Of a stretch of DNA of 64,000 bases, positions 353 through 60,492 are shown in pieces. The stretch covers positions 2,666,001 to 2,730,000 of the forward strand of contig OX621163.1 of assembly GCA_951640195.1 (NCBI GenBank). The letters run 5' to 3'. Below the pieces are notes generated by a model that saw only the letters and a program-made list of their open reading frames with translations, had not been told where the DNA came from and made no database searches. The translations under genes and the position numbers were made by a program. Position 1 is the stretch's first letter. Each line of letters opens with the position of its first letter. This DNA comes from Porpolomopsis calyptriformis. Its lineage: Eukaryota; Basidiomycota; Agaricomycetes; Agaricales; Hygrophoraceae.

Positions 353-3349
353 CTACTTCTTCAATCCCAACCTTTCTAACATCTCCAACACCTTCACTTT
401 GCTCAAGGCCTTGGTCAAGATATCTGCAGGCATGGCATCTGTCCTTAGGTGGATCAACTTGATGGTTCCCTTCTCCACTTCATTCCTCAACCAGTAAAAA
501 TGCAAGTCCAGATGCTTCATACATCCATGGTGTTCTGGGTTTTTGGCAACAGATAAGGCAGATTGGTTATCAATGAACAGAGTGGAAGGGGATGTGAATT
601 GGTAGCCAAGTTCAGTGAACAGATTTCTCAACCATAGGATTTCTTGACTAGCTGCAGTAGCTGCAACATACTCTGCTTCAGTGGTGGATAGTGCAACTAT
701 AGCCTGGAGTCGACTAGACCAACTGATAGCACCAGTACCCATCTTGACTATATAGCCTCCAGTGGAACGCCCATTATCAGGATTGCCAGCATGGTCAGCA
801 TCAGTATAAGTGGTGAATATTTCAGATGGGTTGGAAAGTGGTGAGTAGGTTAATTTGAAGTCAAGAGAGCCTTTGAGGTAACAGAAGAGATGTTTGACAG
901 CTTTCCAGTGCTGCATCCCAGGGTTCTTGCTGAAGTGGGCTAAGACACCAACAGTATAAGAGATATCTGGTCGAGTAGCTATGGCCAAGTACATTAATGA
1001 ACCAACAGCTTGGAGGTATGGGATGGAGCGCATTTCTTCAATCTCTTTAGAGGAAGTGGGAGACATGGATGTGCTGAGTTTGATGCCAGGATCAAGAGGA
1101 GTGCCAACTGGGTTGCAATCAGAGAGGTTAAAGCGTTTAAGCAAGTCAAGGATATATTGGCACTGAGACAATGATAAGGAATGTTCAGAACGATTCCGAG
1201 TGATTTCAACACCCAGTAGCCATGAGGTAGTCCCAAGATCACATAGTTGGAAGTACTTCCTAAGTTCATCCTTGACATGAGCAATCTCTGCAGTGGACTT
1301 TGCAGCAATAGTCATATCATCAATAAAGACTGGCACTATGATGCGCACATCATCCCTCTTGTAGATCCAGATACTGTGTTCACAGGTGATCCTCTTGAAG
1401 CCCATCTTCTCAAAGACCTCATTGAGTTTCTTGTGCCAACACCTGCCAGCCTGCTTTAAGCCATAGATAGATTTGAGCAAGTGCCAGACCCAGTGATTGC
1501 CCTTCTCAACAAAGCCTTCTGGCTGGCGCATATAGACCTCTTCTTCAAGTTCACCATTGAGGTAAGCTGAAGAGATATCAAGACTTTCTAATTCAAGGTC
1601 TTCAAGTGCAGCCAATGCCAGGATAGCTCGGAGTGAAGCCCACTTTGGAGTAGGAGCAAAGGTCTCAGTATAGTCAAATCCAGGTCTTTGGGCAAATCCT
1701 TGGGCCACCACTCTGCCTCTATAGCGCTCAATGGATCCATCAGCTTTCCTTTTAACCTTGAACACCCATTGGCTGCCAATAGCTTTGCGGCCAGGTGGGA
1801 GTTGTACAAGTTCAAAGGTGCCATTTTCAATAAGTTTTTGGATCTCATATAAAGCAGCCTTGTGCCATTCTTCCTTCTCTTCAGGGGAGCACTGCATTGC
1901 CTCATGGTATGTGTTAGGTTCACCATCATGAGTAGCTGTCTTGAATGCATGCTGAGAAGAGTTGAAAGCATACTCCACTGCTTGGTCCAGAGTAAGGTAA
2001 TCAGTCTCTTGACCACTGCACAGATATTCAAATCCAGATTGGATAGCATCTGCATACTCAAGTTCACCATCACTAGGGTCCTTGAGCAGGAGTTCATCAT
2101 CACTGCTAGACTCATTGACTGGAGATAATGGAGGTGAATGCATTTGGTGAGAAGCAGGAGGTGACATTGCAAGTGGGTCAGGAGTAGAAGCAGGTGGAGA
2201 AGCACTATTTGGAGTTGGAGACAGAGTGGATTGGGGAGGCACAGAGGATTGACGACCAAGTAGAGTCTCATTAAGGGAGCCTTGAGGATGACTAGCATGA
2301 GGAGGGTTTTGACGTCTTGAAGGTCCAGGTGGATCAGAGGCAGGTGCCTTATGTCCAGAAGGAACTGGGACAGCAGGAGGTAGATTGGGACCAGGTATAG
2401 GTGCAATTTGTGGCAAAGGTAGTACTGGATGTGGTGCTGTATCATCACTATGGTCATCCTCTCCCCCTTGATCCAGCACCACTACAGATGGTTCAGAGGG
2501 TGCAGAGCAATCAGGTAATATGGAAGGGGAAGAGACCAGATTTATAGCCACAGTAGAGTTGCCAGGAAAGCACCTTGCATCAAACACAGCATGACTGCTG
2601 ATAATGATCTTCTTAGCCACTGGGTCCCAGAACTTCCATGCTTTCACACCATCAGGGTAACCAACAAAGATGCACTTCCTAGAATGAGGTTGGAGTGCTT
2701 TCCTCTTCTCTTGGCGCACTAGCACATAGGCAAGGCAGCCAAAGATACGGAAGTAAGAGATGTCTGGTTTCTTCCCTTTCCAGTGGAAATATGGAGTGTC
2801 TCCATTCAAAGCAGAAGTAGGTGTCCTGTTCCTGGTATGCACATAGGTAGAGACAGCAAGTGCCCAAAAGGAGGGAGGGAGTTTAGCCTGAACCAGGAGT
2901 GCAGTGGCAGCAGCAACAATATCTTCATTTGCATGCTCAGCTACTCCATTTTGATGAGGTTCATTTGGCTCAGTGTGCTGACGCATGATACCATGGTCTG
3001 CACAGAACTGATTGAACTCCCTACTGATGAATTCACCTCCTTTATCATCCCTAGACATCTGAAGGCGTCTTCCAAGTTTGGTCTCAGCATAAGCCTTGAA
3101 TTGCTTGAATGCAACAAGAGCTTCTGTTTTACGTCTCAGGAAAGCAATCACCATGAACCTTGACTTGTCATCAATGAAGGGTTGCCAATAATGGTATCCC
3201 TCTGGTGTCTGAACAGGGAGAGGGCCCTTTAAGTCTGTGTGGACAAGTGCAAGAAGAGAGGATCGACGAGAGGCTGTCTTAGGGATATTATGATGGTGCT
3301 GCTTTCCAAAGATGCATGGCTCACAGATAGGGTCTGGAGATGAGTTGGA
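353..3349 (-). pseudogene. pol: Copia pol: integrase, reverse transcriptase, RNase H
   Basis: C-terminal two thirds of the copia polyprotein. The integrase core has the catalytic triad as Asp (codon 3235-3233, in HTDLKG), Asp (3046-3044, in DDKGGEF) and Glu (2938-2936, in NGVAEHAN), with 35 residues between the last two, the family's DD35E spacing. A Pro/Ser-rich linker follows, then RT_2 with QWVFKVKRKADGSIERYRGR, the NGELEEEVYM segment and the catalytic FIDD at 1327-1316. RNase H follows with TDADHAGN, STTEAEYVA and the terminal KHLDLHFYWLR and DILTKAL motifs. The frame is open from 3349 to the stop at 353, but a TAG at 3350-3352 separates it from the protease part, so the product would be truncated. 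Confidence 0.93.
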
Positions 3350-3905
3350 CTAGATGACCATGCCTGAGACAAGTTTATGGAGGTGCATATGCTTCAAATC
3401 ACCAAAGTTAAGGTGAGAGCAATGCTGATGCCACAGAGTAAGATCCAAGGGAAGGGTTGACTGAGCTGACTGAGCTGACTGAGGAACAATGATCTTGCCA
3501 TCAAGATAGCCAATATTGCGCTCATTGATGGAGGCAGTGAAATGGAGTTCATTGTGATAATAGAACTCAACTCGAGATTGTTGGATTGAAATGGTATATT
3601 GTTTAACACGAGTAAGGTGGAAGAGTGAAAGTAGATTACTGCCAAGATCAGGGACATGGAGTACATCATGAAATACAACTGGTCGCTTGGGTATACCATC
3701 TATGCCTGGTTGGAACTCAACTGAACCAATACCAGCAGAGTAGATTGTTGAATGGTCAGCTAGTTGAATAGCAGTGACATGGGGAGAATATGAGCGAAAC
3801 CAGTGTTTGTGAGGGGTCATATGTGATGTAGCACCTGTATCAGTGTTCCAGTCAGCACAGGATTGAGACTTGAGCCATAGGGAGCGATGGGATGAAGAGA
3901 GAGCA
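3350..3905 (-). pseudogene. Copia protease and GAG-pre-integrase domain
   Basis: This segment holds the aspartic protease with the active-site motif NTDTGATSHM (Asp codon 3841-3839) and the pre-integrase zinc-binding domain (LWHQHCSHLNFGDLKHMH), whose Cys pair (CEPC) lies just past the stop. It is in a different frame from gag and in the same frame as the integrase-RT block. It ends in a TAG at 3350-3352, best explained as a single-base change from a Gln codon, because the protein similarity continues straight through. The protease cleaves the Gag-Pol precursor in the virus-like particle. Confidence 0.9.
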
Positions 3906-4797
3906 CTTTGCATGACCAGCAAATTCAATGGTAGCAGTGTTGGCATTGGTGGTATCTTCAGATGCTTCTTTTGCAGCAGGCTTGTTGCCTCTACCCCTGG
4001 CACCTCGACCACATCCTTGCCATTGGGCAGTCTGCTGTTTGGCATCAGCAGAGGCCTTCTGCTTCTTGAAGCACTTGTCCTCTGTGTGGTTGGTTTTGCC
4101 ACAGAAGGAGCAAAGCAAAGCAGATGATGATGATTGGTAGGCAAGGCTGGGAGATGAGGAGGAGACATTTCTGGCAAGCCGCTGGCTCTCTTCATTCTGG
4201 AAGGCAGATTGGAGTTTATCGATATCAAGGGAGTCAATGAGTAGGAGGGAGGATGCAAAGTTGTTGTATTCGGCAGGAAGGGCACGGATGAGGGTCATGC
4301 AGAGAAGTTCTTTATCCAGGTTGTCCAGTGTGAAGTTAGATGGACAGAGAGCTTTGATATCCTGCAGAGCTTTATCAGCTCTAGCCATTAAGGCAGGCAG
4401 GGTTTTAGCATCATCCTTCCTAATACTGAACAGCGCATCATAGGCATTGAAGTGGGTTCCTGGTCTCTTCTGCAGATGGACAGCCTCTAACTTAGCCCAC
4501 ATTGCTGCAGGGTCAGCTTTGGCATCCTTCACATGCACCTTCTGGCTGTCCTCAATGGCAAGCCATATCTCTCCACTAGCTCTTCCAGATTTCCGGTTCC
4601 AATCCCTAAGCTCAGTGATTTCAGCAGGGGTAGGTTTGACAGGGTCAGCAGCAGTAGGCCTAGGCAGAGATCCATCCACATACTCCCAGAGTTCTTTGGT
4701 GTGAAGGTAAGCCTCCATGTTGTCAGCCCACTTGCCCCCAATTAGTGGGAGTGAGGCAGGGGAATGTCCTCTTTGATTCATTGGTGGAGGCTGACAT
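3852..4797 (-). pseudogene. gag: Copia gag with zinc knuckle, two frameshifts
   Basis: Gag packages the element's RNA. The best start is the ATG at 4797-4795, because its first residues (MSASTNESKRTF...) fit a copia Gag N-terminus. That frame is lost at a C5 run on the plus strand (4735-4739), after which similarity continues in another frame (DNMEAYLHTKELWEYVDGS). The CCHC knuckle CSFCGKTNHTEDKC is near 4125-4085 and is followed by a Gly/Arg-rich tail. Near 3895 a second frame change into protease falls in a CT repeat. Both shifts lie in short repeats, typical of indels. The second could be a translational frameshift, but most copia elements use one frame, so mutation is the simpler view. 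Confidence 0.85.
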
Positions 4798-5920
4798 GAT
4801 GATGATGATGGTGTGTAGGTAGGTGATAAATGGATTATGGAGTATAAAGGGGTAGTGGATGGCAAGGATAGGGTGAGGTTGGTAAATCAGTCTTCTGTGG
4901 GTCTCACACACACTACCAGCTTATTCTCAAGTCGATGAAATCAGTGCTAGCAGTGGTAGTTGATTAATGGAGCTACTTCCAATAAATTGGAAGGGGAGGC
5001 AACTGTAAACCCACCAACCCAATCTCCCTACAACACTGCGTGCAGAGAGAGGTGCTGACTGGTGTGAACCAAGCCAAATAGCAACTGGGGTAACACTCTG
5101 ATAAGAGAGCCCAGGGAGGTAGCACTTCACTGCACTTCACTTTGTTCTAATCTCCTTTCAATAAACCAATGTGCACAGTGACAGCCACAGCACAGACTGA
5201 TGAATGATCAAGTGCTAGAGTCCAGAGAGGTCCCAAGAGTCCAAATTTTTGCCAGAGCACAGAGGGCACGTCCTAGAGTGTCTTGAAGCGATTACAACGT
5301 CCTGGGAGCGATGGAAGCGATGGAACACGAATGGGAATGATTGGGAGGTAGATAGGAGTGGTGAATAATGATGGAGCGCTCCTGGATGATCCGCAAAGGC
5401 AGTAAGCGTATAAGCGAGGGAACCCGATTCGGACGTGGCCTTTAACGTCCACAAGCAATTTCGGACCGATTCGGTGCGATTTGAGTTGGTGGGCACAGGA
5501 ATGATGTGTCAGATCACAGAATGGTGGTTTGGAGTGGTGGGGCTGTTACAGATGGCCACAATGAATGGAGTTGATAACAAGCACCCACAAGTGTCCACAA
5601 GTGCCCACTGATGAGCTGGCAGTCACTGGGATGGATTGGGATGGGTAGGCCTATCACAGATGATGAATAGTGATGTGGACAATTGATTGGGATGTCCTGG
5701 CAAGGGAAATGAAGCCAGCAACGTGTAAATCGGTGGAGGCGCAGAAGGGAGCGTCCGAAAATGGTTGCAAAAGTTTCGAAGTCAGAGAGTGAAAATTGGG
5801 TGAGGACCAGGGTGATTTATATCAGTGGTGCTGGTGAGAGGTCTGGAGAGTGGTTGTAATGGTCCAGGAGTATGCAGGAGCTGTTAGACACAATAGGGGG
5901 TGATTTTAGGCGAAATTTGC
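4798..5920 (-). other. Copia 5' leader, about 1.1 kb, no gene seen
   Basis: Non-coding interval between the primer-binding site and the gag start, long for a copia leader. The part around 5250-5480 keeps more CpG than the coding region. On the minus strand a TATAAAT-like motif lies near 5817-5824. The small open frames here have no family signature and are probably chance. Confidence 0.6.
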
Positions 5921-36446: not shown

Positions 36447-36635
36447 ATGCCGACCACACTCAGAGCCTTGAGGCATGCCAACAAGCACACCTCGTATGTG
36501 TGCTAAACCGAGTGCGACCAATAATTGCCTTAATTAGCAATCAATAGACCAGACATACCCGGTCCGGTGGCGGACTCACCCCAATTGGGGTAATTAGAGG
36601 CACCAAAATGATGCCACAAGTCTAAGCGTGACTTG

Positions 36636-36643
36636 TATAAAAG
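36636..36643 (+). promoter_or_regulatory. TATA box for ORF3 in copy B
   Basis: TATAAAAG lies about 50 bp before the ORF3 ATG at 36692, in the 245-bp spacer after the gag-pol stop. The spacer also holds the perfect palindrome CCCCAATTGGGG. Copy C keeps the same box at 57443-57450 and the same palindrome. An internal promoter for ORF3 is inferred. Confidence 0.6.
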
Positions 36644-36691
36644 CACGACAAACAAAAAACAACAGTAGAAAAATTTCTACCCCGTACAACG

Positions 36692-38936
36692 ATGTCAAAT
36701 GAAAATAGCATGCCCATAAGCGTAAGAGCAAGCCCCCGCCCCGTAGACCCGAGACCACTGGAAACGGTGGAGGATGACGGGGATCAGCTAATGGCTGGTC
36801 CCGACGAAGTCATAAGACCCCTGTGCCAGACACGGTGTGGGCCCTCTTCTGAAGGGGAGAGAGAGCACCGCTCTCGACAAAACACAAGTAACTCGTCAGA
36901 GTTACCCCCAAAAACATGGGTGTGTAACAGCACCATCAACGTCGCGATACACTCCAGTCACCGGAGGTGTAAAGTCTGCAAAGACTATGTAATGCATGTC
37001 GTTGAAGACAGCGTGTACCAAGACGCCTCATTGAAAGAGGCATTCGATAACTGCCGCAAGGCACATCAAGAGGAACTCGTAGCAGAGATCCGAACCTAAC
37101 CATCTCACTCGAGAAGGCTCAAGACGATGGTGATTACTATCACGCTCATTATGAACAAACTCAAGATGAGCTTTATAAAGCCAATCAGCTTATAGCCAAG
37201 CTGAACAAGTCTAACGACACTAGCGAAGCTGAATCGCTAGGAAAGCGCAAGCGCTCCTGTACTGAGGGATCACATTCGCGATTGTCCGAATACACAAGGG
37301 CGGCCAGCCCTGTGACCAAGAAACCCTCTGCCCAAGACAAGGGCAAGGAAAAAGAAACAGACGAGGAGGCTCGACGAAGAGCCGATATGGAACATTTCGA
37401 TCCGTACTCGGACAACGAGTTAGCGGGCTGTGGCCCGATGTTCAGAGACCTCGACAAGGAGGATAATGCGTACATCAAGAGACGCTTCCCTCAAATCATT
37501 CGAGAGAATGAGGAACTGAAGGCTCGCCTTCAACCCACCTCGTATGTCGAGTTCCCAAACCTCCCAGATCCGGGAGTGAATAATCAATCTGGCTGTAGTG
37601 GCGAGATAATCAAACGGCGCAAGAAGCGCTTGACCATTACTGCTTGGCCCAGCATCCCTGCTGGGGCCCACTACTCACCCGTTGACCAGACCATCTGGGT
37701 TGGCGCAAGCGCTGAAGCAGTGCGACGAAACAAAGCGATGGGACTACCCCCTCCATGTGGAACTCGATCTGTGGATGACCGCGGATACCCAGTCAACACG
37801 CACCAATGGCACACTCTATTCATTCAAGCCCAAGAATCGGGCAATAATGAGGCTCTCGAACTTGCGCGATTGTTCATCATGACAGCGCAGGCGACTCCTC
37901 GAGAGAGCAGAACAGATGCTCAATGCGTCTCGTTAATCCATTGGAGAGTTCCCGCCTGGGCTTCAGGTGATTCCACCGACGCACCTGTACAGGTGCCAAC
38001 TTCTTCTGTGCCTAAACGGATTAACCCATCTCAGCCAACTGCCATGAGTTCCCCGGAAGAGTGGGCTCATTGGTTCTACATAAACCGCCATGCCGCGCAC
38101 CCTGGAGTGCGCTTAGAACGAGATGGCAGCATTTCGCTGTGAAGCCTCCGTGGGATGCTTTTGGTCAGTCGACATAAACCAAAGTCACCTAAGACCCGTG
38201 CTCCCGCCGGATCATCCACAGACGCTGACCAGATACAGTCACAATACATCAGAGCGGCGGCCCTCCTGTTTGGAATGCCCGGCCGCTATTACTCACTTGT
38301 GACGGGATCGAACCTATCAATTGCGGAACCCACCAGAGAACCAGCCCGGTACTCTGGATCATCCAATGTCACAGAACAATCCCTCATTCCGGACAAGGCG
38401 TTACATTTGAACAGGCGGACGACGCCTTTGTCTATGCCTTCCAATGGCTCGAGGACACCCTCCAGGGTAATGTCTCAGACTTATCCTCCCTTGAGACGTA
38501 CAGAGAGTCTGTACATACTACACTGGCAAGGAATGGCATTCCTTCATCACTTCGTGACGGAAATGACACATGGTTCCTGGATGGATGTCCTCGCTGACAT
38601 CCCCAGTCTTGTATCTTGTCTAATAACAAGTCTGTTGCCCCATCCGCGGGCCTGATCACCCAAGATGCGTTTGATGCATCTAACTTGTTCACTCGGCATG
38701 GACAAATCACATACACGCTTGCCGAGCGTGGACCACCCCATGGCTGGGACTCGTCCCGCACATTGCGATGCCGTTCACGGCGTGATTCACAAGACAGTGC
38801 TGTGCCGCCAGGCAGCGATAGCGAGCAAGTCTCACTTGGCTTGCCGATCCCTGAACCTGAGCCAGCTTCACTTCAGGAATGTATTGATAGTACGTCAGAG
38901 ATACCTGACGTCCCGATGGACTACGGACGAATGTAG
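36692..38936 (+). pseudogene. Accessory ORF3 of the chromovirus family, unknown function
   Basis: About 750 codons, on the gag-pol strand. The N-terminal part has a Cys/His motif (CNSTINVA, then HRRCKVCKDYVMHV). A long Lys/Glu-rich coiled-coil segment follows, with the basic motif GKRKRSCTEGSH, then SPVTK...DKGKEKETDEEARRRA. Conserved blocks are TAWPSIPAGAHYSPVDQTIW, EEWAHWFYINRHAAHPGV, ITFEQ or VTFEQ with DAFVYAFQWLED, and an acidic C-terminus (GSDSEQVSLGLPIPEPEPAS). No signal peptide or membrane segment is visible, so it is unlikely to be an envelope protein. Compared with C, copy B has lost one base near 37091 and ten bases near 38390, and has a TGA at 38140. Its domain order is conserved among A, B and C. 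I do not recognise the family. Confidence 0.78.
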
Positions 38937-39064
38937 TCGTCGCCGCAGTTGTTTTACTACAGCGCTTATTTTCTATTTCTCTTAGTTATTTCTATGTAGT
39001 TTATAGACTGTTTTATGTGAATTCTGCCTGGCTATCAGGCTTAACTTACCCTGGCAGTTAAGCC

Positions 39065-39076
39065 GAAGGGGGAGGA
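39065..39076 (+). other. Polypurine tract of chromovirus B
   Basis: GAAGGGGGAGGA directly before the 3' LTR. The same tract precedes the 3' LTRs of A and C. Confidence 0.88.
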
Positions 39077-39272
39077 TGTAACAGATATATTACATACAGC
39101 CACTGTGCTGTGTTTGTATGTATTTGTACTGGATACCTTAAGTACCAGTTACGCTTAGGTAAACAATAAGTTTTACATCCCACTCCTGCTTATACCAGAT
39201 TGCCCCAATACATTGGTTCTGTGCATATCCTGGTATTGAGCAAAGTGTAATAACTTATCCCCAATCCTTACA
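39077..39272 (+). repeat. Chromovirus B 3' LTR
   Basis: Partner of 29557-29752, followed by the target duplication atcaa (39273-39277). Confidence 0.95.
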
Positions 39273-48245: not shown

Positions 48246-48302
48246 ATGCTAACCGCACTCAGAGCCTTGAGGTGTGCCAACAAGCACACCTTGTATGCGT
48301 GC

Positions 48303-48919
48303 TGATATGACCCCTCCATCCCCTGAGCACTGTATATTCAACTATACGAATACTAAACACCTATTAAGTCCTTCAAACATGAACTCAAACCCTCCGAACA
48401 CTCCTGATAGCTCCTGAACATCCCGAATGAGTTCGAGATTCATCGAACGCTCCGAATGCAATCGAAGCTTTCCAAACGCGAATGAAAGTTTGTATATCAA
48501 AGGGAAGACACTATTCAAAGGCATCGGTTCTCTTCTATTTCTCCCTTTTCACTTGATTCCTTCATTCCCATTCACTACTTTCCCCTTAGATCATTAGAGA
48601 GGCTCCCCTTTTATCATATACACTCAAAGGGATCCTTGTACTAGAAGATATATATACTGTATGTTGTAGCTAGTAATCCAACAAGTTAGATATTCACTTC
48701 TCTCTCGCTTTCGAGTCTAGATCCTCTCTAGATCTTCTAAGACTTCTTCATTCGATCTTCCGATTCTTCTGATTCTTCCGATTCCCTGATCAATCATGTT
48801 CGCGAACGATCGAAGACTCTCTTTCCACGATTATCGATCATAGGCTGAGTCGAGACTCTTTATAGTCATCCTCACACCTTGTTCTGTGTTCGGTTCTCAT
48901 ACACAAAGCAGATGTATCA
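48303..48919 (+). repeat. Element D 5' LTR
   Basis: TGATATGACCCC...GATGTATCA. The first 200 bp are rich in CpG, TG and CA differences from the 3' LTR; the rest is nearly identical. Confidence 0.93.
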
Positions 48920-48922
48920 TTT

Positions 48923-48940
48923 TGGAGCCCACTGCGAGGG
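48923..48940 (+). other. Candidate primer-binding site of element D
   Basis: TGGAGCCCACTGCGAGGG lies three bases after the 5' LTR and starts with TGG, complementary to the CCA end of a tRNA. The tRNA was not identified. Confidence 0.6.
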
Positions 48941-49210
48941 CCCACTATTAAATCTTAAAAGATTCCTTCGACTCAGTCCTTCGAACCGCCATTCCCAACA
49001 CACAATCGAGTCACTTGAAGTACTACCCTACAAGATAGATTCACTCGGAACACCAATCCGACCCAACTAACACTTCCCAGCTCTCAAATAAATTGAAATT
49101 CAACTTCGATCAACCAACCCGATTCACCTGATGAACCCTCTTCTACCTTATCACTTTCGTCTTTATCCTCAATTTCTATAACAACAATAACGACTCCACC
49201 AACTCTAGTT

Positions 49211-51300
49211 ATGCCCACTCGTGGTCACTCAACCACCCCGAAGTTCAATCCCAAACAACCTCGTGAACTTCGAAGATACTTCCAAGACCTCAGAGGTCTT
49301 TTCGCTAATTGTAGCATCACCAACGACAATGCTAAGAAGACTTACGCTTGCAAATACGTCGACATTGATACCTCTGAACTCTGGGAATACCAAACAGAGT
49401 TCCAAGCTGGACATACGTTTGACAAATTCGTCACCGCCATCTATAAGCTATACCCAGGATCAGAAGACGATCGAAAGTGGTCCATCGCCAACATGGACAA
49501 GATAGTCAGAGAACAGCTTCAACTAGGGATCATGAACACAAACGAACTCGGAGCATATTTCCAATCGTTCCTTGCGATTACTAAATTCCTGCGATTGAAA
49601 AACAGAATCTCCAAAGCAGAACAAAGTCACGCCTTCATCTGAGGATTCCAACCCGAACTCTGGACTAGAATCATCCGACGACTGGAGATCAAGTTCCCCA
49701 ATCACTTCCCCAATGATCCTTACGGGGTAAATGATATCAATGAGGCGGCCTATTTCATTCTATATGGAACGTCTCTGAACACCTTTCTACCGCGTGAAAC
49801 AACGACTTCAATGACAACTACTACCCCCGCCACTAAACAAGAAGACCTCAGTGTCTTCATGGAAAAACTAATAACTACGCTCGTCAAAACCCTGGACAAT
49901 AGAGGTCCCCCTAAATGAAACCTGCCCCCTTGATCGCCACAAACATCGGAACGACGACCCAACGCTCCTGACCCATTCGAACCGAAAACCTGCATCTTCT
50001 GCGGAAGTCCCGATCATTTCATCGGAAGCTGCCCAACCTGCCGCGAATATATCCAAAACAGTTGATGCAAGAAGAACTTCGAAGGAAGGATTGTACTCCC
50101 GAACGACAGGTTCATCCCCCAGCAAATGCCAGGAAAAACCCTGAAAGAATGAATGGACAAATGGTATAAGCAAAACCTGACTCCGACCACTGGAATGATG
50201 TACGGAATTTCAGCAGGTATCCAATGCAATCCAGTGACCAAGAGTTACCAACTATCCGCCGACGAATGGATCGCTGCTCTTGAAAAAGAGATTTTCATGT
50301 TAAGGAGCAAGAAGACCTTTGATGGAGTAGAGATAGTTCGGCCTCGATAACAAGAACCCGAGAAAGAGAAAGCAGCCGACAAAACATTGAGTGCTCCGAT
50401 CACAAACACCCTGACTCAACCTGCTACGACGGAACATCCGTTCACGAAAGCGAAAGAGTCTAACTATGTACTGCCCCACATCTGAAACTTTGGCTCTCCG
50501 ATGGCAAAGAGAGACAAAGACCCCTCATACCACACTCAAGCACCGATCCAAGACTCGAAGATCACCTCCGATGTCTATACTTGTTCGATGAAGACCCCTT
50601 GTGTCACACTTTCCCCTGAAGAGTTGCTATCCCTCTCACCTGAAGTCCAATTGAAGGTTCAAGAGGCAGTAACCCCTAAATGAACTTAGCCTCCTAGTCG
50701 ACCGATCGCAGTCAAAACCGTCGAAGTGGAAGCAATTCTGAATGACGCTCTTCCCTATTGTGACGATGACGATTGTTCCATCACCATTCCCAACCCCTAC
50801 GAATCATATCTGAACACCCTCTCATCTGATGAAACCCCTCACACCGTTACTGTCGTGAAGGAATCGCACGCTCTCCAATCGATCATCATGTTGATTGATC
50901 ATAAAGAAATGATGGAATGTATCATCAATCCCAGATGTCAAATTATCGCTATGTCCGAAGCCGTTTGCCACGACCTAGGACTGATCTATGACCCGACTAT
51001 CTAACTAAACATGCAATCGGCTAACGGCGAAATAGACCAATTGTTAGGTCTCATGAGAAATGTCCCCTGTTAGATAGGCAACATAACCCTCTATCTCCAG
51101 ATTCATGTGATTTGCGCTCCCACCTATGATATCTTGCTCGGAAGACCATTCAATGTGTTAGCTCAAAGCCTTGTCAAGAATTTCACCGACGAAAACCAGA
51201 CGATCACTATTTGCAATCTGAATAGTGGAAGGACCGTCACGATTCCGACAGTTCCACGAGGTCTACTGAAGCATCGTTCAGATTTTTGCTCATTGAGGAT
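49211..51300 (+). pseudogene. gag: Element D gag and protease
   Basis: From ATG 49211 (MPTRGHSTTPKFNPKQP): a Gag capsid-like region (LRRYFQDLRGLFANC, LWEYQTEFQAGHTFDKF), then a zinc knuckle CIFCGSPDHFIGSCPTC near 49991. The protease-like domain at 50880-51300 reads MMECIINPRCQIIAMSEAVC and AYDILLGRPF-like TYDILLGRPF. In related basidiomycete elements this motif is DPG; here Asp reads Asn (AAT 50927-50929) and Gly reads Arg, both G-to-A changes at former CpG. In-frame stops are almost all TGA. Near 51290, at a T5 run, the frame changes into pol, either by an indel or by frameshifting. Confidence 0.83.
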
Positions 51301-54300
51301 TTGATTCCTGATCAAGGAGAGATCGCGATAATTCTAGATTATGACCACGCTATGTCTATGCTATCTGTCAATTCCTGTGCACCTCTATGCGCAACAAATA
51401 AAGTTTCAACAGTTTCCCATGCTTATTTATCCACTTGTGACCTCCCCGACCTAATCTCTAAATCTCGATCAACTAGCAATTGACCTTCCAATTCCGACCA
51501 TCTTGATCGATCAATGGAAATTGCAACCTTCCTCACATCAAAAAAGAAATATAAACCCGTCTCAAAGAAAGTTCGCTCTGTAGTAGCTGAACTCCCTGAT
51601 AAATTCTGAATCATTTGGAAAATCCTTGGTGATCCACTCGCAGACATGCCAACACTCAACCCGAACCCCCCGACGTTTACTCTGACCGAACAATATACAA
51701 CCGAACGAATGGAGCTTTTCGATAAAGCTCACCCCGGAGATTTCCTTTGGCCTCAGGAAAGGGCTCTCCTTCATGATTTCATGAGAAAGCAAGATCTCGC
51801 CTTCACCTGGAATAACTCTGAATGAGGACATTTCAGATCCGACTTTTTCCCTCCCATTGATCTCCCAGTAGTACCACATACGCCTTGGGTACAGAAGAAT
51901 ATTCCGATTCCCCCAGGGATCTACCATGAAGTCTGCAAAGTTATCCAGCGAAAAATCGATGCTGGTGTCTACAAACCCTCGAACTCCTCCTACCGATCGC
52001 GATGGTTCACTGTCTTAAAGAAAGGAGGGAAAGAACTTAGAATCATTCACAGTCTCGAACCACTCAATCAAGTCACGATTTGACACTTGGGAGTGATGCC
52101 AATCCCCGAACACTTGGCCGAACAGTTCGGCGGTCAATCCTGCAGCGCTATGTTCGATCTTTATGTCAGATATGATAAATGAGTAATTGCGCCTTCATCT
52201 CGCAATCTAACCACATTCCAAACACCCTATGGGGCTCATCAACTAGTTACCCTACCCATGGGATGGACCAATTCTGTGCCTGTTTTCCATGACGACGTCA
52301 CCCATATTCTCCAACTGGAGATTCCTGAATTTACAATCCCCTATATCGACGATATCCCTGTAAAGGGTCCTGCGACTCGATACGTACTCCCTGACGGATC
52401 CTATGAAACAATTCCAGAGAATGACGGAATCCGACGATTTGTGTGGGAACACTTCGGGAATCTCAATCAGATAGTCCAGCGAATGAAATACTGTGGTGGA
52501 ACCATGTCAGGCTATAAATCATTCTTGTGCACAGAAGAAACCACTATTCTTGGACACCGATGTACTCACTTAGGACAACTACCGGATGAATCGCGTGTCT
52601 CAGCGATCCGAAACTGGGGTCCCTGTAAGGACCTCTCCGAAGTTCGAGCCTTCCTTGGCACTATTGGCATCATTCAGATTTTCATTCGCAACTTCGCGCA
52701 TTGAGCGAACCACCTAGTCAAGCTCACTAGGAAAGATATGCCCTTCGAATTCAGTCCCAATCAACTCGCCACTCAAGAGGACCTAAAACAAGCTCTTCTA
52801 GAATCGCCTGCTCTACAAGTACTCGATTATACTTCTGACGCTCCTGTCATACTCGCTGTCGACACCTCACATATTGCGGTTGGCTTTCACCTGTGCCAAT
52901 GCGATCCTAACAACCCGAAGAAAAGGTACTATAATCGTTTCGGTTCAATCACATTGAACGATCGAGAAAGAAGGTTCTCCCAGCTGAAACTCGAAATCTA
53001 CGGTCTCTATCGAGCTTTGTGATTGCTCCGACTCTACCTCATCAGTGTTCGGAACCTCATTATAGAAGTCGACGCTCGCTATATCAAGGGAATGCTAGCG
53101 AACCCAGACATCGCGCCTCAAGCCAGTATTAACAGATGGATCGTAGTGATCCTAACGTTCCATTTTACCTTGGTACATGTCGCTGGTTCGAACCACGGTC
53201 CCGACGGTCTCTCTCAATGCCCCCGACAGCCTGATGACCAAGACGACAAAGAGCTGATCGATAAAGACTTCAACAATTGCATTGATTGCGTTCACGGATT
53301 AATGCACCATATTAATGATTCACCCGCGTCCCGAATGAAAACCCTCCAATTGCCAACCTCAGTTTACTCACAGAGTAAACATTTCAGTGAGGAGGAGGAG
53401 GACCCTATCCACTCACGTACCGATTCCTACAACATCGTTCCGCGATTGGAAGCAGCTCAGCAAGACAATCGATGACTCATCCTGGTTCAAAAATGGCTCT
53501 TAGATCTCGAACGACTGAGCAACATGTCCGACAGCGACTACGCAAGCTTTATATGATACTGCGAAGAGTTCTTCATTGACAACCACCGACTATGGCGAAA
53601 AGATAGACAAGGCGTTCATAAATTAGTCATCAATCCAGATTGCCGATTAGCAATCATGACAGAACTTCATGATCGAACAGGCCACAAGGCTATTTTTGCT
53701 ACCCGATTGATCGTTTCTGAACACTTCTGGTGGCCTCATATGGCACCCGACATAGTCTGGTTCGTTCAGATGTGTCATACCTGTCAGGTTCACCAAACCA
53801 TGCAAGCCCTCATTCCTCCAACCGTCTCTACGCTAGCTCCCCTTTTCGCTAAAATCTATGTCGACACTATGCATATGCCCCAATCTGGCCCATTTCGATA
53901 TATAGTCCAAGGGTGATGCTCCCTTACCCACTATCCCAAATTTCGAATGCTTCAATTGGAAACAGTGAAATCGATTGGTGAATGGATCTTCGAGGATATA
54001 ATCTGTCGTTGGGGCTCTCTTTGAGAAATCGTCACAGATAATGGAATGGCCTTCTTAGGAGCTGTAGATTACCTCACCAAGCGCTATCAAATCAACCACA
54101 TTCGCATCAGCAGATACAACTCTCACGCGAACGGAATAGTTGAATGATCTCACTTCGACGTACGACAATCGCTATTCAAAGCCGTCGATGGCGATCAGAA
54201 GCAATGGTCGATCAGAGCCTACTCTGTATTCTGGGCTGAGCGTGTCACTACCTGAAAGCGATTGGGATGCTCACCCTACTTTGCCATCACTGGATCTCAG

Positions 54301-54825
54301 CCATTGCTTCCTCTAGATATTTCTGAAGCAACATATCTCCTTCCCGCTCCAGATTCAGTTCTGTCGACGACTGACCTAATTTTGCAATGCGTGATCGCTC
54401 TGTAGAAACAAGACACTGACTTAGAGCAACTTTGATCGAAGGTTCTTGCTGCTCACCTACGATCTGCCATTCGATTCGAGAAGAAACACAAGAAGACCAT
54501 TCGCGACTACGACTTCAAGACTGGCAATCTCATACTCATTCGGAACACAAAAATCGAGAAGTCTCTCAATCGGAAGATGCGTCCTCAATACCTAGGACCC
54601 CTGGTCGTGATATCTTAAAACCTAGGGAAAGCTTATATCATCGCAGAGCTCGACGGATCTGTCTTACATCGTCCGATCACTGAGTTTAGAGTCATCCCAT
54701 ACTTCACTCGAAGGTCGATCGCAATTCCAAAATGATTCCTCAACATATCAACTTCATGACTTAGAGACATGGAATGTTCGCTAGCTAGCGAACCACTCAA
54801 TAGTATTGCGATCGAGGACTTGTAA
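51286..54825 (+). pseudogene. pol: Element D pol: RT, RNase H, integrase
   Basis: RT has RIIHSLEPLNQV, FQTPYGAHQLVTLPMGWTNS and the catalytic YIDD (IPYIDDIPV, near 52340). RNase H has VILAVDTSHIAVGF and the terminal VAGSNHGPDGLSQ. Integrase has an H2C2 zinc domain (HDRTGH ... CHTCQ), first Asp in YVDTMHMP, second in VTDNGMAF and Glu in HANGIVE. All of these are present. The frame ends at TAA 54823-54825 after several TGA codons that match Arg or Trp positions. No chromodomain is seen at the C-terminus. An internal copy of the polypurine tract lies at 53378-53397. Confidence 0.9.
53378..53397 (+). other. Internal polypurine tract copy in element D
   Basis: aacatttcagtgaggaggag is identical to 56669-56688, directly before the 3' LTR. 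Here it lies inside the pol frame between RNase H and integrase. Ty1 and lentiviruses have central polypurine tracts, so a central plus-strand primer is plausible. Confidence 0.55.
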
Positions 54826-54956
54826 CCTGCCGTAATGAAACTCTACGCAATCTTTTTCATTTCAAGTCTTTCTTTCATTTTTTTTAGAATCAAAAAATAC
54901 AATTTTAGAGGAGAAGACTAGAGGCTACAAAAATTAAAACAAGACAAAGTATAAAT

Positions 54957-56522
54957 CTACAAATTCTCTAAAACCAATTCCTCTTCCTTTTCTTCTAAAC
55001 CCCTTAGAATCTCTTCAAGAACAACAATCCATGCTTTTACATGCGCTTTCTCCTCCACAATCGCTGCCAACACCTCTCACGACTTGTCTTCATCGACAGC
55101 TGCCGCCTTCGCCTTTCCCTTCTGACCCGCAATCGGCTGGGTCGTGTCCTTCGAGCTTTCGCCCACCATTTCCTCCTCGAAAGGTGGGGTCTCATCGATA
55201 TAAACCATAGGACCTATAGAAACAAGAGATTAGAAAAAGAAAAACAATAGAAAAAGAATTACTTACGAGATACAGCCCTTGCTGATTCCTGAACCCCCTT
55301 CTTCGACTCTTCTGCCATCGCCAACTTGTTCGCGCCCTTCGACTCCCCCTTGGGCTGTGGCTTGAATTTCTTCCCCAATCACATTTCCCCCTTCCAATAG
55401 TACCCGCACTTATCTGTTACGCACTTGGCGCATAATGGATTGGTGGGGTTGATTTCGCATTCCATGCCAACCTTTTTGCAGAAATCACACTACGAAATAA
55501 AAGAGTCCATTAGTAAAAACAAAATGAATAGAGAAACAAGACTTACCTTGCCCTCGACTGGGCGCAGGGTCTCCTCCATTGCCTTTTGCTTGTGGTACTC
55601 CCGCGTCGTGATCGCAGGGAGCGACCGTCCCTTCGCCGCCATCCTCTCCCAATGCGCTGCCTTTGACTGCTCAACCTGTTCTTCAGCAGTCAGCAATTGC
55701 GCTGCTGCCGCTGATTCGTTTTCGCCATCCGGGGGCTGGTGCCTATCCTCCGTCATCTCTGTCATCGCCCCCGTCGTGTCTGGCATGTCAGCTGACACTT
55801 CCACCACCTTTGTTCCGCCTTCACCCTCCGCCTTTTCCGTCTCTCGATGGAACTCCTCCTTGTCAATCTTCCCGTCCAAAAGCAACTGGAGGAGCCTCTC
55901 ATAGGCTTCCTCCATCCACTTCCGGTCCTCTGCATCTCGTACCTCCCGTTCTTCTCGCTCCCGCTTCTCTCATACCTCTCACTCCACCCTCTCGACCCAC
56001 TCATGCTCCTCTCATTCCTCTTGTTCCTCACACTCCACTCGCTCTCGCTCCTCTCACTCCTCGCGCTCGACCCTCTCTCATTCCTCCCATGCAGACATCT
56101 CTGCCCTCTCCCTCGCCTCGCATTCCTCTTCTGCCCTTCACTCCTGCTCGACCCTCTCCACCTCCACTTTCTCTTCGACCTCCCAATGCACCACCTCTGC
56201 CAGTCTCGGTATCAACAACTCCCCCACCTATTCCAACCACTCTCACTCTTCGAAAGTGTCGAAGGTCTCACGGGCCTCCTTTTGCCACGCGACGACCTTG
56301 TCATCCATCAATGTTTGCTTCAGGGCCTTGACGACCCGATTATATGTGATCTAAAAGATGGATTAGCAAAGAAAAACAACTAAAAAACACGAGACTTACC
56401 AGCAGTTTACAAAACTGTTGCCCCCAGACTTTATAGTCTTCAGGTTTGGCAACTCCATCCGGAAGCAACTTCATCTGGTCGCTGATCTTCTGTTTTGCAA
56501 TAGTAATAACGTTCTTCGACAT
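54957..56522 (-). pseudogene. Antisense four-exon gene inside element D
   Basis: Minus strand. Exon 1 56522-56400 (ATG, MSKNVITIAKQK...FCKLL), intron 49 bp (56399-56351), exon 2 56350-55547, intron 57 bp (55546-55490), exon 3 55489-55267, intron 53 bp (55266-55214), exon 4 55213-54957 (TAG). All introns start GTAAGT and end TAG, and the 123, 804 and 223+257 base exons join in one frame of 469 codons. Exon 2 encodes a Glu/Arg-rich coiled coil. Exon 3 opens with the six-cysteine cluster CDFCKKVGMEC...LCAKCVTDKC (CX2CX6CX8CX2CX4C), like Zn2Cys6 but with shorter final spacing. About ten nonsense codons remain, nine of them TGA, matching CGA decay. It runs toward pol, ending 131 bp from the pol stop. 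A regulatory protein is a guess; the family is not recognised. Confidence 0.78.
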
Positions 56523-56610
56523 CTTGAATAACTTGATGCAGTTTTCTTGGCATTGTGGTACACAATTTGGAAGACAGTTGTGTCTAAAGATGAATGTGAC
56601 ACACTGGTCA

Positions 56611-56623
56611 CACTTATAAATGT
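56611..56623 (-). promoter_or_regulatory. TATA-like element upstream of the antisense gene
   Basis: The minus strand reads CATTTATAAGTG about 95 bp before the proposed ATG, inside element D just next to its 3' LTR. Confidence 0.4.
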
Positions 56624-56668
56624 GCCTCGGCAACTACCAGCAAATCACGTGATTGACTGAGGACAGTT

Positions 56669-56689
56669 AACATTTCAGTGAGGAGGAGA
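56669..56689 (+). other. Element D polypurine tract
   Basis: The purine-rich run gaggaggaga at the LTR border follows aacatttcagt. The same 20-base string recurs at 53378-53397. Confidence 0.8.
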
Positions 56690-57306
56690 TGATACGACCC
56701 CTCCATCCCCTGAGCACCGTATATTCAACTATACGAATACTAGATGCCTATCAAGTCCTTTGAACATGAACTCAAACCCTCTGAATGCTCCCGATAGCTC
56801 CTGAACATCCCGAACAAGTTCAAGATTCATCGAATGCTCCGAACACGATCAAAGCTTTCCGAATGCAAATGAAAGTTTGTATATCAAAGGGAAGACACTA
56901 TTCAAAGGCATCAGTTCTCTTCTATTTCTCCCTTTTCACTTGATTCCTTCATTCCCATTCACTACTTTCCCCTTAGATCATTAGAGAGGCTCCCCTTTTA
57001 TTATATACACTCAAAGGGATCCTTGTACTAGAAGATATATATACTGTATGTTGTAGCTAGTGATCCAACAAGTTAGATATTCGCTTCTCTCTTGCTTTCG
57101 AGTCTAGATCCTCTCTAGATCATCTAAGACTTCTTCATTCGATCTTCCAATTCTTCCAATTCTTCTGATTCCCCGATCGATCACATTTGCGAATGATCGA
57201 AGGCTCTCTTTCCATGATTATCGATCATAGGCTGAGTCGAGACTCTTTATAGTCATTCTCGCACCTTGTTCTGTGTTCAGTTCTCATACACGAAGCAGAC
57301 GTATCA
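56690..57306 (+). repeat. Element D 3' LTR
   Basis: TGATACGACCCC...GACGTATCA, partner of 48303-48919. It keeps some CpG sites that read TG or CA in the 5' LTR, and the reverse. Confidence 0.93.
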
Positions 57307-57442
57307 GCGCTAAACCAAGTGCAACCGATAATTGCCTTAATCAGCAATCAATAGACCAGACATACCTGGTCTAGTGGCAGACTCACCCCAATTGGGGTAA
57401 TTAGAGGCACTAGAATGATGCCACAAGTCTAAGCGTGACTTG

Positions 57443-57450
57443 TATAAAAG
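57443..57450 (+). promoter_or_regulatory. TATA box for ORF3 in copy C
   Basis: TATAAAAG, 43 bp before ATG 57493, the counterpart of 36636-36643. The element D insertion lies upstream of it, so it stays with ORF3. Confidence 0.6.
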
Positions 57451-57492
57451 TATAACAAACAAAAAACAACAGTAGAAAATTTTCTACCATGT

Positions 57493-59889
57493 ATGACAAT
57501 ATCAAACAAAGATAACACGCCCACAAGCATAAGAACAAGCCCCCACCCTATAGACCTGAGACCACCAGAAATGGTGGAAGATGACGGGGATCAGCTAATG
57601 GCTAGTCCCAATGATGTCATCAGATCCCTGTGCCAGACACAGTGTGGGCCTTCTTCTGAAGGGGAGAGAGAGCACTGCTCTCAACAAAACACAAGTAACT
57701 TATCAGAGTTACCCCTGAAAATATAGGTGTGTAACAGCACCATCAATGTTGCCAGTCACCAGAGGTGTAAAGTCTGCAAAGACTACATAATGCATGTCAT
57801 TGAAGACAGTGTATATGAAGATGCCTCATTGAAAGAGGCATTCGATAACTGCCGCAAGGCACACCAAGAGGAACTTGTCACAGAGATCCAAAACCTCACC
57901 ATCTTACTCGAGAAGGCTCAAGATGATGGTGACTACTATCGCACTCGTTATGAAAGCACCCAGGACAAGCTTAATAAAGCCAATCAGCTTATAGCCAAGC
58001 TGAATAAATCTAACAACACTAGCAAAGCTGAATTGCTAGGAAAGCGCAAGCGCTCCCATACTGAGGGATCACATTCACGATCATCAGAATACACAAGGGC
58101 AGCCAGCCCTGTAACCAAGACTTCCTCTGCTCAAGACAAGGGCAAGGAAAAGGAAACTGACGAGAAGGCTCGACAAAGAGCCGATATGGAACACTTCGAT
58201 CCATACTTGGATGATGAGTTAGTGGGCTGTGGCCCAATGTTCAAAAACCTCAACAAGGAAGATAACGTGTATATCAAGAGACACTTCCCCCAACTCATTC
58301 AAGAGAATGAGGAACTGAAGGCTCATCTTCAACCTAACTTATATGTCAAGTTCCCAAACCTCCCAGATCCAGGAGTGAATAATCAACCTGGCCCTAGTGG
58401 CAAGATGATCAAACAGCGCAAGAAGCACTCAACCATCACTGCTTGGCCCAGCATCCCTGCTGGGGCCCACTATTCACCTGTTGACTAGACCATCTGGGTT
58501 GGCGCAAGCGCTGAAGCAGTGCAACAAAACAAAGCATTGGGATTACCCCCTCCACGTGGAACTCAATCTGCAGATGACTGTGGATACCCAGTCAATGCAC
58601 GCCAATAGCACACTCTGTTCATGCAAGCCCAAGAATTGGGCAATAATGAGGCTCTCGACCTTGCGCGATCATTTGTCACAACAGTGCAGGCGACTCCTTG
58701 AGAGAGTAGAATGGATGCTGTTAAGGCAGTGCCGAGAACTACGTCACCTGACTTATGACCTAAGACCGTTCAGCCAAAAGCGTCACAATACCAAGCTGGT
58801 ATTGTATGTGGTTCTCGGTATATATAGCTGATCCGTGATTAGGGCGCAATCGTAACAGATGCTCAATGTGTCGCGTTAATCAATTGGAGAGTTCCTGCCT
58901 GGGCTTCAGGTGATTCCATTGATGCACCTGTACAGGTGCCGACTTCTTTTGTGCCTGGATTGGTTAACCCATCTCAGCCAACTGCCACAAGCTCCCCAGA
59001 AGAGTGGGCTCGTTAGTTTTATATAAACCACCCTGCCACGCACCCTGGAGTGCACTTGGAATGAGATGGCAGCATTTCGCTGCAAAGCCTCTGCGGGATG
59101 CTTTTAGTTAGTCAACACAAACCAAAGTTGCCTAAGACCCATGCTCCCACCGGATCATTGACAGGCGCCAACTAGATACAGTCACAATACATCAGAGCAG
59201 TGGCCCTCCTGTTTGGAATGCCTGGCTGCTATCGATCACTTGTGACGGGATTGAACCTGTCCATTGCAGAACCCCCCAGAGAACCAGCCTGGTACTCTGG
59301 ATCATCCAATGTTACAGAACAATCCCTTGTTCCATTCTTCACTGGACAAAGCATTACATTTGAACAGGTGGATGATGCCTTTGTATATGCCTTTCAATGG
59401 CTCGAGGACATGCTCCAGGGTAATGTCTTGGACATATCCGCCCTCGAGACATACAGAGAGTCTGTGCATAATACACTGGAAAGGAATGGCATCCTGCCAT
59501 CACTTCATGATGGAAATGACACCTGGTTCCCTAACAGACATCCCTGCCGACGTCCCCCATCTTGTATCTTGTCTAATGATGAGTCTGTTGCCTCACCCAC
59601 AGGCCTTATCACCCAAGATGCATTTGATGCATCCAACTTGTTCACTCAGTGTGGACAAACCATGTACACACTCGCAGAGTGTGGACTACCCCATGGCTGG
59701 GACTCATCCCACACTTTGTGATGCTGTTCACAGTGCAATTCGCAAGACAGCGCTGCACCACCAGGCAGCAATAGTGAGCAAGTATCACTTGGCTCACCTA
59801 TCCCTGAACCTGAGCCAGCTTTGCTTCAGGAATGTATTGATAGTATGTTAGAGATACCTAATGTCCCGATGGACTATGGATGAATGTAG
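57493..59889 (+). pseudogene. Accessory ORF3 of chromovirus C, split
   Basis: Collinear with ORF3 of B, starting MTISNKDNTPTS. The Cys/His motif reads CNSTINVASHQRCKVCKDYIMHV. The coiled coil is LEKAQDDGDYYRTRYEST, followed by GKRKRSHTEGSH. The blocks TAWPSIPAGAHYSPVD and DAFVYAFQWLED are kept, and the C-terminal acidic part (SNSEQVSLGSPIPEPEPA) ends at 59889. A TAG at 57724 and several TGA and TAG codons interrupt it. A 139-bp LTR sits at 58719-58857. In places C keeps bases that B lost, so the two copies together define the frame. Function unknown. Confidence 0.78.
58719..58857 (+). repeat. Short solo LTR, 139 bp
   Basis: TGTTAAGGCAG...AATCGTAACA with the duplication gatgc (58714-58718, 58858-58862). 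It has intact CpG sites, unlike its surroundings, and a TATATATA run near 58820. Its small size fits a TRIM-type or minimal LTR. Strand is not certain. Confidence 0.88.
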
Positions 59890-60029
59890 TCTTCACCACA
59901 GTTGTATTACTATGGCATTAATTTTCTGTTTCTCTTAGTTCTTTCTATGTAATATATAGATTGTTTTGTATGTATTCTGCCTGGCTCTCAGGCTTAACTT
60001 ACCCCAGCAGTTAAGCCAAAGGGGGAGGA

Positions 60030-60224
60030 TGTAACAGATATGTTACATATAGCCACCATGCTGTGTTTGTACATATTTGTACCAGATACCTTAAGTACCA
60101 GTTATGCTTAGGTAAACATTAAGTTTACATCCCACTCCCACTTATACCAGATTGCCCTAATACATTGGTTCTGTGCATATCCTAGTATTGAGTAAAGTGT
60201 AATAACTTATCCCCAACCCTTACA
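60030..60224 (+). repeat. Chromovirus C 3' LTR with polypurine tract
   Basis: TGTAACAGATATG...AACCCTTACA, preceded by AAAGGGGGAGGA (60018-60029). Target duplication ctagc at 60225-60229. Confidence 0.93.
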
Positions 60225-60492
60225 CTAGCTCTAGATAGCGAAGAGATCCTCCATTGATGGATAGTCAGTGATGCGGAGTCACTGGGAATGGAATTGGTCA
60301 TGCTGGGCATGAATTGATGCGTATTGAAGTTGGATGAATCCCAAGCTAGCACGGTGGAAGAAGATATGTGAAAGTTTGTACTAGAGGTATACTAGAAAGA
60401 CTATTCTAGTGTCTTTGCCAAAGAATCCTTTGACTGCCTTCTACCACATTCAGAATTCAACCATGCCATAGAATTGGATGAAACTTTCAAAC
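60225..60492 (+). pseudogene. Element E: start of reverse transcriptase region
   Basis: Resumes after copy C. It contains the sequence usually found just before gypsy RT, in decayed form: SVFAKESFDCLPPHSEFNHAIELDETFKL. It is cut at 60493 by an F element on the other strand. This links the protease at 41023 to the RT side, giving the order gag-PR-RT of element E. Confidence 0.65.

Follow-up and report, generated by a model that had tools for sequence, protein, structure and literature searches.

A conserved intron-bearing antisense gene with a Zn2Cys6-type cysteine cluster and a candidate operator in a Ty3/Gypsy retrotransposon family

The window analyzed here, a stretch of 64,000 nucleotides (C1:2666001-2730000) belonging to a genome of 33.5 Mb in 17 contigs, contains a Ty3/Gypsy LTR retrotransposon, element D, at positions 48303-57306 (Table 1). 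The element has the paired LTRs with TG...CA ends and the target-site duplication of this class, and the order RT-RNaseH-integrase is indicated by the open stretches in its copies and by the domains of its pol relatives. These relatives numbered 836, the best being 67% identical, and among the 120 listed nearly all carried PF17921 and many PF17919/PF17917; they point to a fungus, probably a basidiomycete, as the host. The two LTRs of the window copy were 92.5% identical, and the partners of the target-site duplication differed by one CpG-type transition; in the nine other D copies with both flanks, the 4-bp flanks matched exactly in three, differed by one transition in two, and did not match in four. 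The gag-protease and pol regions lie on the forward strand in different frames, of which the window copy keeps only short open stretches, and several of the eight D copies examined retain long ones.

Table 1. Features of element D and its antisense gene in the window
Feature	Position	Strand	Remarks
Target-site duplication 5', GTGC	48299..48302	.	3' partner GCGC at 57307-57310
5' LTR	48303..48919	+	617 bp, TG...CA ends
gag-protease frame	49030..51300, approximate	+	projected from copy L016; broken in window copy
pol (RT-RNaseH-integrase)	51230..54820, approximate	+	projected from copy L016; broken in window copy
Second ACATTTCAGTGAGGAGGA copy (PPT-adjacent sequence), within pol	53378..53396	+	upstream of integrase core
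Antisense gene	54957..56522	-	ATG at 56522, TAG at 54957; pseudogene in window copy
Exon 4	54957..55213	-	257 nt; C-terminal segment and TAG stop
Intron 3	55214..55266	-	53 bp; GT-AG in 27/40 copies
Exon 3	55267..55489	-	223 nt; six-cysteine cluster in first 90 nt, then basic linker
Intron 2	55490..55546	-	57 bp; GT-AG in 40/40 copies, length 57-85 nt
Exon 2	55547..56350	-	804 nt; highly charged, Glu/Arg-rich
Intron 1	56351..56399	-	49 bp; GT-AG in 36/40 copies
Exon 1	56400..56522	-	123 nt, ends in phase 0
Inverted repeat TGTGAC-N6-GTCACA, candidate operator	56595..56612	.	34/37 copies
TATA box of antisense gene, TTTATAAG	56613..56620	-	37/37 copies
Polypurine tract adjoining 3' LTR	56677..56689	+	sequence
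3' LTR	56690..57306	+	617 bp

Several further features of the element were observed. In copy L016, the gag-protease frame (1295-3562 in the gag-pol orientation) and the pol frame (3487-5592) overlap in different frames, which suggests ribosomal frameshifting. The sequence ACATTTCAGTGAGGAGGA was present twice, within pol and beside the 3' polypurine tract (window 56669-56689), in all eight elements compared, a set from which disrupted, composite or one-LTR-only copies were left out, and the copy within pol could possibly be a central polypurine tract. The sequence just past the 3' LTR (window 57300-60225) matches another repeat family, found at window 36493-39272, and D has probably inserted into an older element. 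The decay of D appears to consist mostly of CpG-type transitions, as transitions make up 45 of the 46 differences between the two LTRs in the window and nine of the ten stops in the antisense gene of this copy are TGA, and this suggests cytosine methylation of D elements.

A gene of four exons lies antisense to gag-pol in the stretch from pol to the 3' LTR. The position, strand, exons, three GT-AG introns and frame of 469 codons, including the stop, which had been proposed in a sequence-only reading of the window, were all recovered, and the exon lengths hold this one frame. This frame is not open in the window copy: the joined exons contain 10 internal stops, and their being mostly TGA is consistent with CpG decay. 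All three introns have a GTAAGT donor, a CTAAT branch-point-like motif and a TAG acceptor. The protein region encoded by exon 2 is presumably a long helix, and the C-terminal segment encoded by exon 4 is probably helical as well.

The search of the genome with the locus gave 44 matching pieces, from 40 scored of 92 candidates, and the 39 copies obtained were aligned with that of the window, making 40. The start ATG was present in 37 and the stop TAG in all of them, the joined-exon length was divisible by three in 32, and two copies (L029 and L033) were fully open, with no internal stop. The ends of intron 2 were constant despite its variable length, with the branch motif at -24 or -25 in 39 of the 40 copies. 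For intron 3, 12 of the 13 losses of GT-AG were a G to A change in the donor, which in the window copy is preceded by C and hence part of a CpG. The outcomes that, according to the sequence-only reading, would have counted against the gene were not observed: it is present in other D copies with its frame and introns conserved, and it shows purifying selection, as described below. A sense-strand ORF was rejected as a candidate, because every opposite-strand frame of the joined exons contained 4-7 stops in the two open copies, in which the frame on the gene strand had no stop but the terminal one.

The gene was present at 74 of the 77 listed D-type integrase loci, where a locus was counted if the exon 2-3 piece matched on the opposite strand at most 2.6 kb downstream of the integrase. 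These loci were rows of at least 71% identity, one per locus, hand-picked and typed from a search in which 150 of 203 candidates were scored, and their number is thus a lower bound, as is that of the gene matches listed. As for the three loci without a gene match within 2.6 kb downstream, one (L050) runs into the pol of another element about 0.2 kb downstream, the second has a correctly oriented gene match some 7.6 kb away, possibly with an insertion between, and the third has just a short piece of an integrase. Among the gene matches listed, eleven were without an integrase partner; some of them are fragments or second pieces of counted copies, and two are divergent, being 43% and 47% identical, with stops inside. 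It was also observed that three D loci at C1:3.79-3.96 Mb pair, in inverted order, with three at C9:0.15-0.31 Mb, and the two pairs that were aligned had identities of 99.5% and 98.7% over the gene region, probably owing to a segmental duplication of some 160 kb. The introns are what an ordinary nuclear gene would have, and the two divergent partnerless matches may represent a host paralogue, so that the locus might be thought to be a chance or recently captured fragment of a host gene, with no role for the element. Recent capture is, however, ruled out by the near-fixation of the gene at the 74 of 77 listed loci.

Variation among the copies was examined in columns without CpG in any copy, leaving out those with too few copies, and variants shared by at least two copies, which mostly predate insertion, were separated from private variants, found in one copy only and mostly due to decay. 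In the 40 copies, codon positions 1, 2 and 3 had 0.154, 0.108 and 0.595 shared variants per column, respectively, and introns had 0.577, whereas private variants were flat, at 0.276, 0.244 and 0.250 with 0.297 in introns. When L035 and L042 were removed, each being one member of a near-identical pair that is probably a segmental duplicate, the corresponding values were 0.142, 0.098, 0.561 and 0.550 for shared variants and 0.288, 0.253, 0.280 and 0.324 for private ones. The ratio of nonsynonymous to synonymous changes in this duplicate-free set was 88:158 for shared variants compared with 206:53 for private ones (Fisher p 5e-24), and in all 40 copies it was 96:167 compared with 197:46. Indels in multiples of three accounted for 31 of the 48 distinct events in exons and for 8 of the 36 in introns. 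The concentration of shared variants at third positions and in introns, with private variants everywhere, indicates purifying selection while the elements were active, followed by decay, and the gene was presumably translated.

A non-coding stretch or chance ORF is ruled out by the codon-position statistics, the frame-keeping indels and the conservation of the splice sites. The gene overlaps the element RNA in the 3' portion of the latter and could thus be mainly a source of antisense RNA, acting through dsRNA silencing or interference with gag-pol RNA, with its protein mattering little, a role of the kind discussed for plant antisense ORFs in a review (PMC7264820). This is very improbable because of the codon statistics, since it leaves the constraint at codon positions 1 and 2 and the frame-keeping indels unexplained. 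The copy presence and selection also effectively refute, for the whole family, the host-fragment explanation, to which we assign hardly any probability. Taken together, it is almost certain that this is a real, selected and spliced antisense gene, as judged from the comparison of copies. The main view of the sequence-only reading, with an intron-bearing protein gene carried antisense by this Gypsy family as a stable component, is supported by copy number, splice-site conservation and selection.

The antisense gene was less constrained than pol in the same 12 copies, with shared nonsynonymous and synonymous variants of 44:83 compared with 17:114. Separately, third-position shared variants amounted to 0.269 in the antisense segment compared with 0.127 in pol, and, in 300-bp bins over the eight elements mentioned above, shared non-CpG variation in the segment carrying the antisense gene (window 54903-56600) was, in places, as much as about fourfold that of pol and the LTRs. 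This extra diversity could result from recombination between diverged element lineages or from selection for regulator variety.

The Zn2Cys6 cluster (PF00172) has the spacing CX2CX6CX5-12CX2CX6-8C. The six cysteines in exon 3 of the window copy are spaced CX2CX6CX8CX2CX4C, as had been noted from the sequence alone, but this form was found in only 4 of the 40 copies, and the usual spacing, absent from the window copy, is CX2CX6CX8CX2CX6C (32/40). Thus, the Zn2Cys6 spacing is present in 32 of the 40 D copies, and it was also found in all 25 peptides of an exon-3 alignment (22 from D and three from a second family described below). Stop-free rows were chosen for this alignment, which took in 22 of the 30 listed D peptides and left out L053 and stop-containing, duplicate and some further peptides. 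The Pfam Zn_clus profile (PF00172) did not reach its cut-off with the L029 piece (7.7 bits vs 21); it gave matches in 6 of the 25 exon-3 peptides, with a best E of 0.012 and none in the first member. A sequence search of PDB gave nothing significant, PUT3 being second and third with E of 0.56 and 0.58, and protein searches with the antisense product gave no credible relative. A fold model of exon 3, poor outside the cluster (mean pLDDT 55), had nine Foldseek matches, all of them GAL4, LEU3 or PUT3, with weak E values of 0.95 to 4. On the basis of the spacing and the predicted fold, the product is probably a DNA-binding protein.

On the gene strand, the TATA box TTTATAAG is followed directly by the inverted repeat TGTGAC-N6-GTCACA, about 70 nt before the ATG, and in the 37 copies compared the arms of the repeat were nearly invariant and its spacer variable. 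A site between the TATA box and the coding start is where a repressor would be expected to act. The repeat occurred at 70 sites genome-wide, compared with 2 for a reversed control, and 43 of the 50 sites listed were within 700 bp of a match to the D antisense gene, with 7 farther away. Neither half-site was present in the LTRs of the window copy, so that a direct action on the gag-pol promoter finds no support. The lack of a site in these LTRs, the DNA-binding architecture and the 7 of 50 listed sites at a greater distance would also suit a regulator that mainly targets host genes to the benefit of the element. However, two of these outlying sites are associated with D, one lying beside the insertion-bearing copy L012 and another at a distance of 0.8 kb from a D match; since the outliers are few and the reversed control itself has 2 sites in the genome, there is no clear excess of host sites, and we regard targeting of host genes as quite unlikely.

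The half-site TGTGAC does not contain the CGG triplet that is the usual DNA target of Zn2Cys6 proteins. It may be considered that the protein is no transcriptional regulator but an accessory replication or nuclear factor, acting for example in the integration complex or chromatin, and that the repeat is the site of a host factor driving the antisense promoter. Besides the half-site not being the classical CGG, this would agree with the absence of the repeat from the LTRs of the window copy and with its single occurrence in the window element and in seven of the eight other loci scanned, the exception (L025) including part of a neighboring copy. The antisense protein of the plant element Grande is nuclear, and its role is given as unknown in a review (PMC7264820). 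On the other hand, conserved arms with a variable spacer right after a TATA box fit a dimeric factor co-evolving with the gene, and the same half-site recurs, with another spacer, in a second family that also has the cysteine cluster in its antisense gene. A nuclear factor without regulatory function is accordingly judged unlikely, though it deserves serious consideration.

This second Gypsy family, S, has an integrase about 40-50% identical to that of D and carries an antisense gene just downstream of pol. Four copies (L048, L051, L052 and L053) were examined, none of which was open throughout the gene. The three exons of the S gene measure 132, 483 and about 606 nt, both introns have GT-AG in all four copies, exon 2 is charged, and the cluster is CX2CX6CX8CX2CX6C. 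Variable non-CpG columns among the four copies were 0.030 at first, 0.053 at second and 0.110 at third codon positions, compared with 0.303 in introns. In both D and S, intron 1 lies 8 residues past a YxxW motif and intron 2 lies 0 or 5 residues before the first cysteine of the cluster, each in phase 0. The S promoter has TGTGAC-AT-GTCAC upstream of the ATG, a sequence with 20 sites in the genome, 18 of them within S copies, and none for the control. BLAST gave no significant similarity between the D and S antisense genes. The cluster profiles scored 19.6 compared with a shuffle maximum of 15.4, beating all 30 shuffles, although the hhalign probability was only 11% (E 0.0028), and for exon 1 and the tail the profile match was no better than that of shuffles. 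The D and S genes are likely homologous, and the simplest explanation would be that gene and promoter descend together from one ancestor, with a change of spacer. That the gene probably predates the split between D and S is another point against a chance host fragment.

We return to a regulator encoded by the element itself. The TATA promoter between the ATG and the 3' LTR would drive transcription of an accessory gene in the direction opposite to gag-pol, and the spliced mRNA would yield a protein of about 450-470 residues. In this protein, a charged and probably helical region would be followed by a DNA-binding cluster of the Zn2Cys6 type, a basic linker and, at the C-terminus, a segment possibly capable of dimerizing. 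The dimer would bind TGTGAC-N6-GTCACA just downstream of the TATA box and repress or otherwise tune its own promoter, and this control would set the amount of the regulator or of antisense RNA. In the RNA of the element, the splice signals are present only as their complement, so that the introns would survive reverse transcription. An antisense position thus serves well for carrying introns through an RNA intermediate; the proposal in the sequence-only reading that it is the only way was overstated. Its guess of a regulatory protein finds some support in the Zn2Cys6 spacing, the predicted cluster fold, with its weak scores, and the promoter repeat. As a whole, the explanation of a selected, spliced accessory gene for a self-regulating DNA-binding protein is the one we favor, with modest confidence. 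Its component of self-regulation through the repeat is held tentatively, at somewhat below an even chance.

Because a single genome provides dozens of copies that show clear selection and conserved introns, together with a recognizable cluster and a candidate operator, the regulatory idea is directly testable. The family also shows how a gene with introns can be retained over the long term in an element that moves by way of RNA. A stronger proposal, which we consider rather unlikely, is a retrotransposon lineage with its own repressor-operator switch, in which a spliced antisense Zn2Cys6-type dimer acts on an operator beside its own TATA box. If this were true, the half-site spacing (6 in D and 2 in S) and the divergence of the genes would sort the elements into distinct regulatory or even immunity-like groups, and the logic of the switch would be comparable to that of temperate phage repressors.

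Zn2Cys6 factors are known to act as dimers on inverted repeats of differing spacing. The D protein resembles GAL4, LEU3 and PUT3 in the spacing of the six cysteines and in having them as its best, weakly scoring, fold matches in the model, and it differs from them in having the cluster in its second half after a long charged region, in the half-site TGTGAC and in the score of the L029 piece below the Pfam threshold. The HBZ gene of HTLV-1 is spliced and its product is a bZIP protein, whereas D has a cysteine cluster, and the analogy is thus one of working, with no homology claimed. HBZ is a retroviral antisense gene whose product is a nuclear regulator containing a coiled coil, according to the account in PMC11963269. 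The HTLV antisense promoter is placed inside the 3' LTR in the review cited above (PMC7264820), whereas the TATA box of D is outside the LTR, although D may have an additional antisense promoter within its 3' LTR. Among plant Gypsy elements, antisense ORFs between pol and the 3' LTR are described for Grande (gene23), RIRE2 and Retand (TRP28), with a function given as unknown in these descriptions and a regulatory role proposed (PMC7264820; PMC11963269). D is like them in the place, orientation and presence of the gene in most copies, Grande also has its own promoter, and nuclear or DNA-binding proteins are suspected for the plant ORFs; as far as the same two accounts describe them, the plant proteins differ in domain content (TRP28, SMC) and no introns are mentioned (PMC7264820; PMC11963269). 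In contrast, D has three conserved introns, a Zn2Cys6-type cluster and an inverted repeat in the promoter. Boty/BcGypsy1 of Botrytis cinerea, an ascomycete element, is likewise a fungal Gypsy with an extra antisense gene, brtn, a likeness drawn from the published descriptions and not from sequence (Zhao et al. 2011, as cited in PMC8365987, PMC4227169 and PMC7264820). Antisense accessory genes are thus already known from Grande and Boty, and what appears to be new here is the presence of introns and a Zn2Cys6-type cluster in a Gypsy antisense gene, for which the literature searches gave no report. An antisense gene of a mobile element that retains a spliceosomal intron is described in nuclear rDNA group I introns of Didymium, where a homing endonuclease gene interrupted by a small spliceosomal intron is reported to be expressed and spliced (PMC9548176). 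The carrier and the product differ, being a group I intron and an endonuclease in Didymium and a retrotransposon and a putative regulator in D.
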